Source: Butyrivibrio sp. (GTDB lineage Bacteria; Bacillota; Clostridia; Lachnospirales; Lachnospiraceae). Taken from it: a stretch of 64,000 nt of DNA. The translations under genes and the position numbers were made by a program. Positions 48,925 through 55,078 of this stretch are shown one piece after another (the first letter of the stretch is position 1; every line of letters starts with the position of its first letter). The stretch lies in contig JAILPB010000021.1 of the NCBI GenBank assembly GCA_024690485.1, positions 1 to 64,000 of the forward strand. The letters are read 5' to 3'. The notes under the pieces are model-generated. The model saw nothing but the letters and a program-made list of their open reading frames with translations, did not search any database and was not told where the DNA came from.

Positions 48925-48980
48925 TTGTACAAATATCATATATGGGTTATTATAAAGAAGTACAGATAATTTGTGTACAA
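48925..48980 (+). promoter_or_regulatory. Candidate marR promoter with flanking operator-like half-sites
   Basis: TTGTAC (48925), 17-bp spacer, TATTAT (48948-48953); TTGTACAAAT (48925-48934) and ATTTGTGTACAA (48969-48980). Confidence 0.5.
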
Positions 48981-49005
48981 TTTTATTTTAAAAGAGGGTA
49001 AAAAT

Positions 49006-49458
49006 ATGGCAAAAACAGAACAGAAAGACAAGGAATATGAAGGACTAAAGCTGGAGAATCAGATTTGCTTTCCACTATATGCATGCTCAAAGGAGATTAT
49101 CAGAGCATATAAACCATTTCTTGATGAAATAGATCTTACATATACCCAGTACATTACAATGATGGTTCTTTGGGAGAAGAAGGAGATGAATGTTAAGACT
49201 CTTGGCGAGAATCTGTTTCTTGATTCCGGAACCCTTACTCCTGTGCTTAAAAAGCTTGAATCTAAGGGCTTCTTAAAGAGAACACGCTCAAAGTCTGATG
49301 AAAGAAATCTTCTGGTATCCATTACTAAAGAGGGAGAGGCTCTTAAGGAGAAAGCAAAAGACGTTCCGGAGAAGATTGGAAAGTGCGTTTGCTTAGACAG
49401 TGATGACGCTAAAGAACTGTATCGACTCCTGTATAAAGTTATCGAGAATATCCGCTAA
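49006..49458 (+). CDS. MarR family transcriptional regulator
   Basis: LGENLFLDSGTLTPVLKKLESKGFLKRTRSKSDERNLLVSITKEGEAL winged-helix motif; SD aaaagaggg before ATG 49006. Confidence 0.92.
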   Translation: MAKTEQKDKEYEGLKLENQICFPLYACSKEIIRAYKPFLDEIDLTYTQYITMMVLWEKKEMNVKTLGENLFLDSGTLTPVLKKLESKGFLKRTRSKSDERNLLVSITKEGEALKEKAKDVPEKIGKCVCLDSDDAKELYRLLYKVIENIR

Positions 49459-49472
49459 AAAAAAATACATAT

Positions 49473-49498
49473 AAATTTGTGTTTTTTATAACAAATTT
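49473..49498. promoter_or_regulatory. Inverted repeat AAATTTGT-N10-ACAAATTT upstream of ech (candidate MarR operator)
   Basis: Perfect 8-bp arms in the marR-echA intergenic region. Confidence 0.45.
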
Positions 49499-49581
49499 TT
49501 TATCAAAAACCGCGTATTTTGTGATAGTATAGTAAAGGCGAAAATTCGTTAAAATTTTATCCTGAAAGGGGTGGAGATTCC

Positions 49582-51519
49582 TTGACAATATCTATTTTAA
49601 GTGCAGTGAAGTTTTTGATACTGTTTCCGTTCGTCATGGCGGTACTCATGTTCCTTGTAAAAAAGGCTTCATTGTTACGCAATCTTATCGCTGTAGTAGG
49701 AGGCTTTTCTATTATGGCAACAGCCATCATGGTTGGTATCAGAGTTTTAAGTATGAAGGGTGTAACCCATAATACATATCTCACCAATACAGAGGCTATT
49801 GATCACGTTATCATGGGTGGAGAGATTCTCCTTATGTGTATCGTGTTCTTCCTTAGCATCAAGTACAAAAAGTACTATGCTATCTTACTTTCACTTATCG
49901 GAACGGTTCCGGTTCTTTGGATGGATCTTTCCGGTAATGCTGTAGAAGGCTTCGCGCATCTTCGTGTGGACTTCCTTTCTGCAGTAATGATTCTTATTGT
50001 TGGTATCGTAGGTATCCTTATATGCATCTATGCATGCGGATACATGAAAGATTACCATCACCATCACACAGAGGTTGCAGACAGATCCAACTATTTCCTG
50101 GCTCTTCTTTTTGTATTCGTAGGAGCTATGTTTGGTCTTATTGTTTCAGATAACCTCGGATGGATCTATTTCTTCTGGGAAATCACCAGCGTATGTTCAT
50201 TCCTTCTTATCGGTTATACAAGAACAGAAGAAGCTGTTAACAACAGCTTTAGAGCTCTGTGGATGAACCTTCTTGGTGGTTGCGGATTTGGATTTGCACT
50301 TATGGTTGCAAACATGCACTTTGGCATTGCAAATTTAAGTCAGCTTACATCAATCGTTCCCAGACAGAACATGTTTGTAATGGTTCCTGTAACACTTATG
50401 GCATTTGCAGCTCTTACAAAGAGTGCTCAGTTCCCGTTCTCAAGATGGCTTCTTGGAGCGATGGTTGCACCTACTCCCAGTAGTGCACTTTTGCACTCAG
50501 CTACAATGGTAAAGATCGGTGTGTATATGCTTATCCGTCTTTCTCCTATGCTTAAGGGCACATTTACAGGCGTTATGATCACTGTAATCGGTGGATTCAC
50601 ATTCTTTGCAGCATCACTTCTTGCAATTACTGTTAGCGATGGTAAGAAGGTTCTTGCATACTCAACAATTTCAAACCTTGGTCTTATTACAGCCTGCGCA
50701 GGTACAGGTACAACGGAAGGTGTTTGGGCAGCTACAATGCTTATTCTCTTCCATGCTGTATCTAAGTCACTTCTGTTCCAGACTGTTGGTGATATCGAGA
50801 ACTGCATGCATAGCCGTGACGTAGAAGATATGCATGGTCTTATCATCAAGCTTCCTAAGCTTGCATTTATCATGATCATCGGTATCTGCGGAATGTTCAT
50901 GGCTCCCTTCGGAATGCTTGTTTCAAAGTGGGCAGCTCTTAAGTCGTTCGTAGATTCAAATTCAGTTTGGCTTGTTCTTTTCCTTGTATTTGGTTCAGGT
51001 TCTACACTTTTCTACTGGGCAAAATGGCTTGGAAAGATTTGTACAGTTATCCATCAGTCATATGAGCTTGAGGATATTACACCCAGAAGTGAGATGATCT
51101 CACTTGTTCCTCTTACATCTATGATTGTAGTTATGTGTTTTGCATTCCCCTGGATGTCTGATCACATGATTCAGCCTGTACTTAATGAGGCATATCATAA
51201 GAATATTCCGAATGTAATCGGCGGCTCAGATGTAGTTATCATGATGATCATGGTTGCTATGATCTTTATCATTCCTATTGGAAGCCGTTTCCTTGCAATC
51301 GGTAAGAAGAGTAAGATGACCATGTCATATGTAGCAGGTGTAAATGCAGGTGACGACCGTCACTATATCGACTCCTTTGGTAAGGAGAGACCGCTTTACA
51401 TGTCTAACTGGTATATGACAGATTATTTCGGTGAGGACAAGCTCCTTGCACCCAGCATTGTAATTTCTGCAATAATCGTAATTGTAATGCTGATTATCGT
51501 TGTCGGAGGTGCTTTCTGA
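49582..51519 (+). CDS. echA: Ech-type hydrogenase membrane subunit EchA (NuoL-like)
   Basis: TTG start; 645 aa polytopic; FFWEITSVCSFLLIGYTRTEEAVNNSFRALWMNLLGG, KSAQFPFSRWLLGAMVAPTPSSALLHSATMVKIGVYMLIR. Confidence 0.92.
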   Translation: MTISILSAVKFLILFPFVMAVLMFLVKKASLLRNLIAVVGGFSIMATAIMVGIRVLSMKGVTHNTYLTNTEAIDHVIMGGEILLMCIVFFLSIKYKKYYAILLSLIGTVPVLWMDLSGNAVEGFAHLRVDFLSAVMILIVGIVGILICIYACGYMKDYHHHHTEVADRSNYFLALLFVFVGAMFGLIVSDNLGWIYFFWEITSVCSFLLIGYTRTEEAVNNSFRALWMNLLGGCGFGFALMVANMHFGIANLSQLTSIVPRQNMFVMVPVTLMAFAALTKSAQFPFSRWLLGAMVAPTPSSALLHSATMVKIGVYMLIRLSPMLKGTFTGVMITVIGGFTFFAASLLAITVSDGKKVLAYSTISNLGLITACAGTGTTEGVWAATMLILFHAVSKSLLFQTVGDIENCMHSRDVEDMHGLIIKLPKLAFIMIIGICGMFMAPFGMLVSKWAALKSFVDSNSVWLVLFLVFGSGSTLFYWAKWLGKICTVIHQSYELEDITPRSEMISLVPLTSMIVVMCFAFPWMSDHMIQPVLNEAYHKNIPNVIGGSDVVIMMIMVAMIFIIPIGSRFLAIGKKSKMTMSYVAGVNAGDDRHYIDSFGKERPLYMSNWYMTDYFGEDKLLAPSIVISAIIVIVMLIIVVGGAF

Positions 51520-52385
51520 TGGCTATGACAGTACTTAAAGTTGCTTTATATATTTTACTTGCTCCTATTTTAGGAGGACTTATGGAAGGTCTGGACAGAG
51601 TAGTATCTGCCAGAATGCAGGGCAGACAGGGTCCGCCCCTCCTTCAGCCTTTTTATGATGTTTATAAGCTTCTTGCAAAGCAGACAACTGTTGTTAACAG
51701 TATTCAGATTCTCTTTGTAATTGCTTATCTTATCTTTACAATTTTCACAGGTTCACTGTTCTTTGGCGGTGGAGATATGCTTCTTGTATTCTTCGCTTTA
51801 TCTATGTCAGAGGTTATGATGGTCCTTGCTGCTTATTCAACAAACGGACCTTACAGTGCACTTGGTGCTAACCGTGAGCTTTTACAGATGATGTGCTACG
51901 AGCCCATGATTCTTCTTGTAGCTATCGGCTTCTATGAAGTAAGCGGAAGCTTCATGGTAAATGACCTTATAAAGGTAGACAGCCCTGCAGTGTTTAAGAT
52001 TCCCGGAATGCTTATCGGTTTCTTATTCATACTTACAATTAAGTTTAGAAAGTCTCCTTTTGATATGAGTACATCTCATCATGCACATCAGGAGATGGTT
52101 AAAGGTCTTACATCTGATATCTCAGGTAACAACCTTGCATTCTATGAGATAGCAGAGTGGTATGATCAGGTACTTATGATGGGTATTGTTGCTATGTTCT
52201 TTATCTGCAAGAACCCTGTAAGTATCATCGTTGCAATCGTTGCATGCGTGATTTTCTATTTGATGGAAACACTCATTGATAATGTGTTCCCTCGTGTAAA
52301 ATACATGGCAATGCTTATTTCAAGCTGGGTAGTGATCCTTGTTGCAGCGGGAACAAATTTGTTAATCTTAAGTGTATTAGACTAA
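51519..52385 (+). CDS. echB: Ech-type hydrogenase membrane subunit EchB (NuoH-like)
   Basis: GGLMEGLDRVVSARMQGRQGPPLLQPFYDVYKLLAKQ; KFRKSPFDMSTSHHAHQEMVKGLTSDISG. Confidence 0.94.
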   Translation: MAMTVLKVALYILLAPILGGLMEGLDRVVSARMQGRQGPPLLQPFYDVYKLLAKQTTVVNSIQILFVIAYLIFTIFTGSLFFGGGDMLLVFFALSMSEVMMVLAAYSTNGPYSALGANRELLQMMCYEPMILLVAIGFYEVSGSFMVNDLIKVDSPAVFKIPGMLIGFLFILTIKFRKSPFDMSTSHHAHQEMVKGLTSDISGNNLAFYEIAEWYDQVLMMGIVAMFFICKNPVSIIVAIVACVIFYLMETLIDNVFPRVKYMAMLISSWVVILVAAGTNLLILSVLD

Positions 52386-52395
52386 AGGAGATATT

Positions 52396-53061
52396 ATGAA
52401 AATTTCGAAATCACCTTGGGTGTTACATTATGATGGATCAAGTTGCAACGGCTGCGATATCGAAGTACTTGCAACAATGACTCCTCTTTATGACGTAGAG
52501 AGATTTGGAATTATAAATACAGGTAATCCCAAGCATGCTGATATCCTTCTTTTGACAGGTGGTATAAATGCTCAGACAGCTCCTGTTGTCAGACAGCTTT
52601 ATAATCAGATGCCTGATCCTAAGGTAGTTATTGCTTGTGGTATCTGTTCATGTGACGGAGGTATCTTTAAGGATTGTTACAACATCCTTGGAGGTTCTGA
52701 TAAAGTCGTTCCGGTTGATGTATATGTTCCGGGATGCGCTGTTCGCCCTGAGGCTCTTATTGATGGTGTTGTTAAGGCACTGGCAATCCTCGAGGAGAAG
52801 AGAGTTAAGGTTAAGGAATCTATGAAGCAGGGTTACTGTACAGTAGATTACAGCAAGATTGCAGTTCGTATGAAGGCTGAGGATTATGATCCTGCGACTC
52901 AGTACGATGCAGTTCTTACTGAGGAAGCTCTTCGCGAGCAGGCAGAGCAGAAGATTGCTCAGACAGCTAAGCCTGCACCTAAGCCGGCAACTCCTGCAGC
53001 AGCACCTGCAGCAAAGCCCGCAGCTGATGCGGCAGCAACTAAAGAAGGAGGAAACGCCTGA
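52396..53061 (+). CDS. echC: Ech-type hydrogenase small subunit EchC (NuoB-like)
   Basis: SSCNGCDIEVLATMTPLYDVERFGI, ACGICSCDGGIF, VPGCAVRPEALIDGV; Ala/Pro tail. Confidence 0.94.
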   Translation: MKISKSPWVLHYDGSSCNGCDIEVLATMTPLYDVERFGIINTGNPKHADILLLTGGINAQTAPVVRQLYNQMPDPKVVIACGICSCDGGIFKDCYNILGGSDKVVPVDVYVPGCAVRPEALIDGVVKALAILEEKRVKVKESMKQGYCTVDYSKIAVRMKAEDYDPATQYDAVLTEEALREQAEQKIAQTAKPAPKPATPAAAPAAKPAADAAATKEGGNA

Positions 53062-53393
53062 TGAATTGTGAATTTAAAATGGTAAGGGCGGAAGAGATCA
53101 TAGACGAAGCACAGAGACTTCATTATGATGGTTATCATCTTATGCAGCAGTGTGCAACAAGAACAGAGACAGGCTATGAACTCGTTTATACCTTCGGAAA
53201 AGCTCTTGATGTATTACAGGTTAAGATAATACTCGATACAGATCAGCCCATTAACAGTATAAGCCATGTATTCCCTTGTGCTTTCCTGTATGAGAATGAA
53301 ATGCATGATCTGTTTGGCGTAGATATCAAGATGATCAGTCTTGACTATAAGGGTTCATTCTATAGAACAGCTATAGAGACACCATTTAAGTAA
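53061..53393 (+). CDS. echD: Ech-type hydrogenase subunit EchD (NuoC-like)
   Basis: 110 aa; INSISHVFPCAFLYENEMHDLFGVDIKMISLDYKG. Confidence 0.88.
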   Translation: MNCEFKMVRAEEIIDEAQRLHYDGYHLMQQCATRTETGYELVYTFGKALDVLQVKIILDTDQPINSISHVFPCAFLYENEMHDLFGVDIKMISLDYKGSFYRTAIETPFK

Positions 53394-53420
53394 TTTGAAT
53401 TTAAAGAATAAGGAGAAATT

Positions 53421-54509
53421 ATGTCAACAAGAAGTGTGATTCCTTTTGGACCTCAACATCCTGTTCTTCCGGAACCCATTCATCTTGATCTGGTTTTAGA
53501 GGACGAGAAGGTTGTTCAGGCAATACCTTCAATAGGTTTTATACACCGTGGATTGGAAAAGCTTGTAGATAAAAAGGATTTCCATGAAATGGTTTATGTA
53601 GCAGAGCGTATCTGCGGTATCTGTTCTATGGGACACGGCCTTGGATACTGTGATGCTGTAGAGCATATTATGGATCTTGAGATCCCTGACAGAGCAAAGT
53701 TCCTTAGAACTATGCTTTCAGAGCTTTCACGTATTCATTCACATATGCTTTGGCTTGGTCTTTTAGCTGATGCTTTTGGATTTGAGTCACTTTATATGGA
53801 ATGCTGGAGAATCCGTGAAGAGGTTCTCGATATGTTTGAGATCGCTACAGGCGGTCGTGTAATCTTCTCAATCATGAAGATTGGTGGATTAAGACGTGAC
53901 CTTCCTGATGACATGCTTGCAGATTTCAGACAGAGACTTGATAAAATCGAGGAGCAGCTCAAGGTTGTGGCTAAACCTTTCTATGATGATGTAGCTGTTA
54001 AGAATCGTCTTGTAGGTGTTGGTATCCTTACACCTGAGAAGGCTGACCTTCTTGGAACAGCAGGACCTTTCCTTCGTGCAAGTGGTATCGCAAGAGATAT
54101 CAGATCTACTGAAGGATACTGTGCATATGATCAGATTGAGTTTGAGCCTATCATCAGCACAGGCTGCGATTCTTACGCAAGAACTGAAGTAAGAATCAAG
54201 GAAATCTTCCAGGCTATCGATATTGTCCGTCAGTGTATTGATAAGATGCCTGCAGGTGCAGTTGATGTTCCTGTTAAGCCTAATCAGTTCCCTAACGGTG
54301 AATACATGACCAGAATAGAGCAGCCCAGAGGTGAAGCTCTGTATTATGTAAAGGCAAATGGAAGTAAGTTCATCGACAGAATGAGAGTTAGAACTCCCAC
54401 ATTTGCAAATATCCCTGCACTTGTTGAGGTTATGGCAGGTTGTGACCTTGCAGATGTTCCGATTCTGGTGCTTACAATTGATCCTTGTATCAGTTGTACA
54501 GAGAGATAA
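53421..54509 (+). CDS. echE: Ech-type hydrogenase large [NiFe] subunit EchE (NuoD-like)
   Basis: L1 motif RICGICSMGHGLGYCDA, L2 motif DPCISCTER at the C-terminus. Confidence 0.95.
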   Translation: MSTRSVIPFGPQHPVLPEPIHLDLVLEDEKVVQAIPSIGFIHRGLEKLVDKKDFHEMVYVAERICGICSMGHGLGYCDAVEHIMDLEIPDRAKFLRTMLSELSRIHSHMLWLGLLADAFGFESLYMECWRIREEVLDMFEIATGGRVIFSIMKIGGLRRDLPDDMLADFRQRLDKIEEQLKVVAKPFYDDVAVKNRLVGVGILTPEKADLLGTAGPFLRASGIARDIRSTEGYCAYDQIEFEPIISTGCDSYARTEVRIKEIFQAIDIVRQCIDKMPAGAVDVPVKPNQFPNGEYMTRIEQPRGEALYYVKANGSKFIDRMRVRTPTFANIPALVEVMAGCDLADVPILVLTIDPCISCTER

Positions 54510-54565
54510 TTTATATTCAAATTGGATTTTGCCATGAATATATGTAAGAAAGAAGGTAGGAAGAT

Positions 54566-55078
54566 TTGAGTCTTGTTAATTTTAATAAAACAGTAATTAA
54601 AAACTTATTCTCCAAGCCGGCCACCAGAAAATATCCCTTTGAACCAAAGGTATATCCGGAGCGTACACGTGGACATGTGGTAAATGACATGGATGTTTGT
54701 GTACTTTGTGGACTTTGCTCCATTAAGTGCCCTACACATGCAATCACTGTTGATAAAGCAGCAAAGACCTGGTCAATCAGACCTATGAGCTGTATCCAGT
54801 GCAGAAGCTGTGTAGACAACTGCCCTAAGAAGTGCCTGTCTATGGATACTCAGTTCACTGAGCCCGGCTCTGAGAAGCTTACAAAGACCTTCCCTCAGTC
54901 AGAGAAGGCTATTGCAGCTCAGGAAGCTCTTATGAAGGCCGCTAAGGAACGTGCCGCCGCAGCAGCCGCTGCAAAGGCAGCTCAGGCAGGTAATGCAGCT
55001 AATGCTAATCCTGTAGCAAACGCAGCTCCTGCAGCTCAGGCACCTGCTCAGCCCGCAGCAGAGAAAAAGGACGAATAA
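54566..55078 (+). CDS. echF: Ech-type hydrogenase ferredoxin-like subunit EchF (2x[4Fe4S])
   Basis: TTG start; CVLCGLCSIKCP and CIQCRSCVDNCPKKC; Ala-rich tail. Confidence 0.93.
   Translation: MSLVNFNKTVIKNLFSKPATRKYPFEPKVYPERTRGHVVNDMDVCVLCGLCSIKCPTHAITVDKAAKTWSIRPMSCIQCRSCVDNCPKKCLSMDTQFTEPGSEKLTKTFPQSEKAIAAQEALMKAAKERAAAAAAAKAAQAGNAANANPVANAAPAAQAPAQPAAEKKDE

Follow-up and report, generated by a model that had tools for sequence, protein, structure and literature searches.

The MarR-type gene upstream of the energy-conserving hydrogenase (ech) very likely encodes an OhrR/OspR-type repressor that binds a TTGYNNRCAA palindrome, represses its own gene and controls an antioxidant gene set, with ech itself carrying no such operator. 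The window, i.e., the whole 64-kb stretch analysed, belongs to a Butyrivibrio genome that is 73% complete, and its gene order is minC, minD, minE, the MarR gene (ohrR from here on), ech and hyp. The initial annotation had proposed that the MarR protein controls both its own promoter and ech through similar half-sites; a limited open-access literature search returned no link between MarR and Ech. The present results remove this proposed regulator of Ech, regarded as an ion pump and as the principal hydrogenase in rumen butyrivibrios, and offer a concrete putative peroxide regulon (ohrR, gpx, trxB-like genes and nitroreductases) for anaerobic rumen bacteria.

The ohrR gene (49006-49458, forward strand) encodes a product of 150 amino acids, with Cys21 as the predicted sensor. 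This product contains a winged-helix MarR domain (60.1 bits against the Pfam model, cut-off 24.6), and its top NCBIfam model is OhrR with 180.4 bits, which is below the equivalog cut-off of 200, a threshold of the model and not a biological feature. Among solved structures, B. subtilis OhrR is the closest relative (E = 1.3e-40). Cys21, Tyr25, Tyr35, Tyr46 and the recognition-helix core are invariant among 81 aligned sequences, in which a few genomes are present more than once. Given the translation, the family models and the B. subtilis match, the product is classified as an OhrR-type thiol peroxide sensor. The gene is found in 74 of the 79 genomes of the genus, as a single copy in nearly all of them.

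The three strings on which the initial annotation relied are indeed present where it placed them, yet they represent three different things (a -35 element, an operator and a dyad upstream of ech) rather than one set of shared half-sites. The first, TTGTACAAAT (48925-48934), overlaps the ohrR -35, and the promoter proposed there is a reasonable one: its -35 TTGTAC (48925-48930) and -10 TATTAT (48948-48953), on the forward strand, are conserved in position in relatives, where CATTGAA (in most) and TATNATA are found instead. The second, ATTTGTGTACAA (48969-48980), begins 16 bp past the -10, in the leader, and contains the conserved operator. The full candidate OhrR operator, TAATTTGTGTACAATTTT, spans 48967-48984 on the forward strand, with its core TTGTGTACAA at 48971-48980.

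Phylogenetic footprinting, which had been suggested for both sites, favours only one of them. The palindrome TTGYNNRCAA is kept downstream of the ohrR -10 in 12/12 aligned short-gap Butyrivibrio loci (these species, like the 17 genomes considered below, are related, and are thus not independent trials), whereas TTGTACAAAT is not kept at the -35 of relatives. An operator made of two half-sites across the ohrR promoter was therefore dropped, and conservation indicates that TTGTACAAAT is the -35 element and not an operator. The proposed autoregulation is nevertheless well supported by the sequence, through a single operator. The same core also lies within 140 bp before ohrR in ten loci outside the genus, with no ech nearby. 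Loci of the long-gap clade show no more than a degenerate version before ohrR (10.9 being the highest score among those listed), although gpx in this clade retains the operator.

The training set of the operator matrix comprised gpx and trxB-like sites (score range 14.8-24.4) and no ohrR site. Across the 64-kb window, 48967-48984 ranks first with a score of 15.0, the next score being 9.8, and the ohrR promoters of the 12 species score between 14.0 and 18.2. In Markov sequence, scores of 15 or more arise at a rate of 3-7 per Mb. The -35 string TTGTACAAAT ranks 288th in the window, with a score of -5.6. Regarding chance levels, perfect 8-bp arms such as those of the ech dyad appear in 20% of dinucleotide shuffles of the 123-bp gap (74% A+T), and 7% of shuffles place one or more copies of the hexamer ATTTGT/ACAAAT in each of the two intergenic regions. 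A combined count of four is rare, at 0.05% of shuffles, a value that must be read considering that the hexamer was chosen post hoc and that the palindrome gives two of the four. Among the strings, only the second is above chance, as an operator.

The operator recurs at antioxidant genes. The pattern ATTGYNNRCAATT is about twice as frequent as its reversed control in 11 genomes (175 vs 84, summed), and its intergenic copies precede glutathione peroxidase (gpx), thioredoxin-reductase-like (trxB-like), nitroreductase, thioredoxin and aldo/keto-reductase-like genes; gpx and trxB-like identities were checked with Pfam and NCBIfam, and the other target genes were named by reading the sequence. In a directed retrieval covering both clades, the core is upstream of the main gpx in 17/17 genomes, usually overlapping the -10, and 13 of 15 genomes have it before the trxB-like gene. 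The window's own incomplete genome has a trxB-like gene with the core upstream of it (L349, TTGCGCACAA) and yielded no gpx match. AATTGY half-sites are seen at ohrR, gpx and trxB-like genes alike, in an order that differs from the published B. subtilis OhrR box. Ownership of the operator by OhrR is suggested by its presence at ohrR in several lineages and by the target set, yet given the differing half-site order, the site could belong to a different MarR protein. In many other Clostridia (L023, L029, L044, L065, L089 and others), ohrR by reading directly follows the end of a gpx-like ORF, where IKWNFTKFLIDR..VERFEPT matches glutathione peroxidase; this arrangement fits a gpx regulon.

In the mechanism we propose, reduced OhrR would bind the dyad at 48967-48984, shortly downstream of the ohrR -10, and once bound would repress ohrR transcription. 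The same operator would serve the gpx, trxB-like and nitroreductase promoters elsewhere in these genomes. Organic peroxide would oxidise Cys21, releasing the repressor and switching the gene set on. Transcription of the hydrogenase would start at an extended -10 promoter of its own that lacks an OhrR operator, and the dyad upstream of that promoter would be a separate element.

The ech operon (49582-55078, forward strand, from Pfam and translations) consists of echA (49582-51519), echB (51519-52385), echC (52396-53061), echD (53061-53393), echE (53421-54509) and echF (54566-55078), all on the forward strand. It shows the features of a group 4 [NiFe] hydrogenase: Complex-I-like subunits according to Pfam and, in the translation of echE (the large subunit), two CxxC metal-ligand motifs, CGIC and CISC. 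Its predicted extended -10 promoter is TGTGATAGTAT (49520-49530, forward strand), with TGTGNTARTAT conserved in 12 species. Folding and conservation predict two hairpins in the mRNA leader (49535-49581, forward strand), one near its 5' end (~49537-49550) and one over the Shine-Dalgarno (~49556-49575). The sequence of the 5' hairpin varies between species, and an invariant 20-nt stretch, TATCCTGAAAGGGGTGGAGA, is predicted to place the Shine-Dalgarno within a hairpin with a GAAA loop, ahead of the TTG start codon. The Rfam scan of three loci gave no hit above a family's gathering score; a sub-threshold match to Clostridiales-1 RNA occurs in L024 (338-458), with 32.3 bits vs a gathering score of 48.

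The third string, the dyad AAATTTGT-N10-ACAAATTT (49473-49498, forward strand), lies in the ohrR-echA gap, upstream of the ech promoter. When intact, it is found 37-39 bp before the extended -10; its right half is better kept than its left, which is altered in L020, L021 and L105. Since related species keep this region, at a constant distance from the ech -10, the dyad is probably a real element, but a different site from the ohrR operator: its half-sites are spaced as TTG-N12-CAA vs TTG-N4-CAA in the operator.

This bears directly on the claim that ech is controlled by the MarR protein through binding to the ATTTGT/ACAAAT half-sites of the dyad, which we now consider highly improbable. The claim draws on the exact 8-bp dyad with its shared hexamer and on the adjacency of the genes, ohrR being directly upstream of ech or csoR-ech in 53 of the 68 genomes inspected (our own count). 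However, the dyad scores -9.4 and ranks 927th in the window, its spacing is off by 8 bp, and the matrix scan found no normal-strength operator before ech in the 12 short-gap species. Before csoR-ech, none of 45 long-gap loci, in nearly all of which a csoR-like gene separates ohrR from ech, reaches a score of 12. The sequence evidence does not support OhrR binding at ech. The ech gap scores below 0 in 10 of the 12 species; the other two have weak matches 57 bp before the echA start, TGTATTTTACGCAATTAT with 10.8 in L104 and TGTATTTTATACAATTAG with 8.3 in L019, both falling inside the predicted 5' hairpin of the ech leader, in these two loci only.

OhrR might instead act on ech indirectly, through readthrough from the ohrR promoter that it controls. 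Both genes are on one strand with a gap of 123 bp, in which a simple consensus scan, of a kind that can miss A+T-rich terminators, finds no terminator-like site. Nevertheless, a conserved promoter and leader belong to ech itself, and we regard readthrough as rather unlikely.

Two further readings concern the dyad itself. It could be bound by a redox regulator, either the NADH sensor Rex or another one, as TTGT-N10-ACAA has the Rex spacing, Rex is present in 66 of the 79 genomes of the genus, and C. thermocellum Rex targets hydrogenase genes (PMC8457756). In comparison with TTGTTAANNNNTTAACAA, however, TTGTGTTTTTTATAACAA agrees at 10 of 14 positions, matching in spacing but not at the inner positions. 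Neither the canonical nor the ech-type pattern is enriched, the genome-wide search with the ech-type dyad giving no excess over control; Rex was not found in the window's incomplete genome, and rex promoters bear a different-looking element. These points make a Rex site doubtful. It is similarly improbable that a redox regulator, Rex or other, acts at the dyad in replacement of metal-responsive hydrogenase control in the clade without the intervening csoR-like gene. Defining a Rex regulon by TTGTTA-N6-TAACAA was abandoned, with few matches, no more than in the control, and those inspected mostly inside reading frames.

The simplest reading takes the ech dyad as an upstream promoter element rich in A+T, its palindrome being incidental, and we lean towards it. 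Its position at about -60 to -43, its T and A tracts, its better-kept right half, the lack of a good ech -35, and the occurrence of such a palindrome in one fifth of the shuffles are consistent with this. Yet the single G and C within the two halves are for the most part conserved between species, and a plain UP element would need neither.

Taken as proof of regulation, adjacency is weakened because at least ten genomes have ech and ohrR in separate places, and because in G054 the csoR-like gene stays beside echA (L353) with ohrR elsewhere. In L354-L357 (G057, G059, G037 and G056), the gene directly before echA reads by eye as MinC; hence, a min-ech neighbourhood exists without ohrR. Synteny is probably an adequate explanation of the ohrR-ech adjacency, rather than co-regulation. 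Diverged ech copies away from ohrR (large subunit 61-62% identical) occur in G001:C2, G002:C2, G021:C11, G030:C62 and G077:C104, the G077 copy having one TAG within its large-subunit frame.

The csoR-like gene (Pfam Trns_repr_metal) that separates ohrR from ech in the long-gap clade has its own promoter; it is found there in most relatives and is absent there in the window's clade. In most Butyrivibrio, the gene preceding echA codes for a CsoR/FrmR-like metal sensor whose N-terminus is rich in His, e.g., between ohrR and echA in L024, L027, L110-L116, L118-L125 and others, and at 1489-1743 of L353. Its leader (e.g., the L024 and L037 gaps) has the potential for a long stem, AATGTGCGTTTT/AAAACGCACATT, in which the arms co-vary in L037, L131, L110 and L113 and the loop is very variable in length; these features suggest a structured RNA leader and not a DNA operator. 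As candidates for control of Ech, this CsoR-like metal repressor and the structured leaders appear better than OhrR.

Regarding known systems, the ech genes of the window are of the kind catalogued for rumen butyrivibrios (PMC4478896), a study that covers Ech energetics and whose text lacks the terms MarR and repressor; the difference here is the csoR-like gene, which separates ohrR from ech in most relatives, though not in the window's clade. B. subtilis OhrR (PDB 1z91, 1z9c), the closest solved relative over residues 9-149, has in common with the Butyrivibrio protein the sensor Cys, the Tyr residues and the recognition-helix core DSGTLTP. In contrast, the Butyrivibrio AATTG half-sites are ordered AATTGYNNRCAATT and not TACAATTNAATTGTA, the published B. 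subtilis box (PMC6034001), and the recurrent target is gpx and not ohrA. A GCAATT/AATTGC-type box was first proposed for Pseudomonas aeruginosa OspR and found insufficient for binding (PMC4999210). Although the half-site order differs, and gpx and ohrR are usually apart in Butyrivibrio, OspR resembles the system proposed here in being an OhrR homologue that controls glutathione peroxidase.
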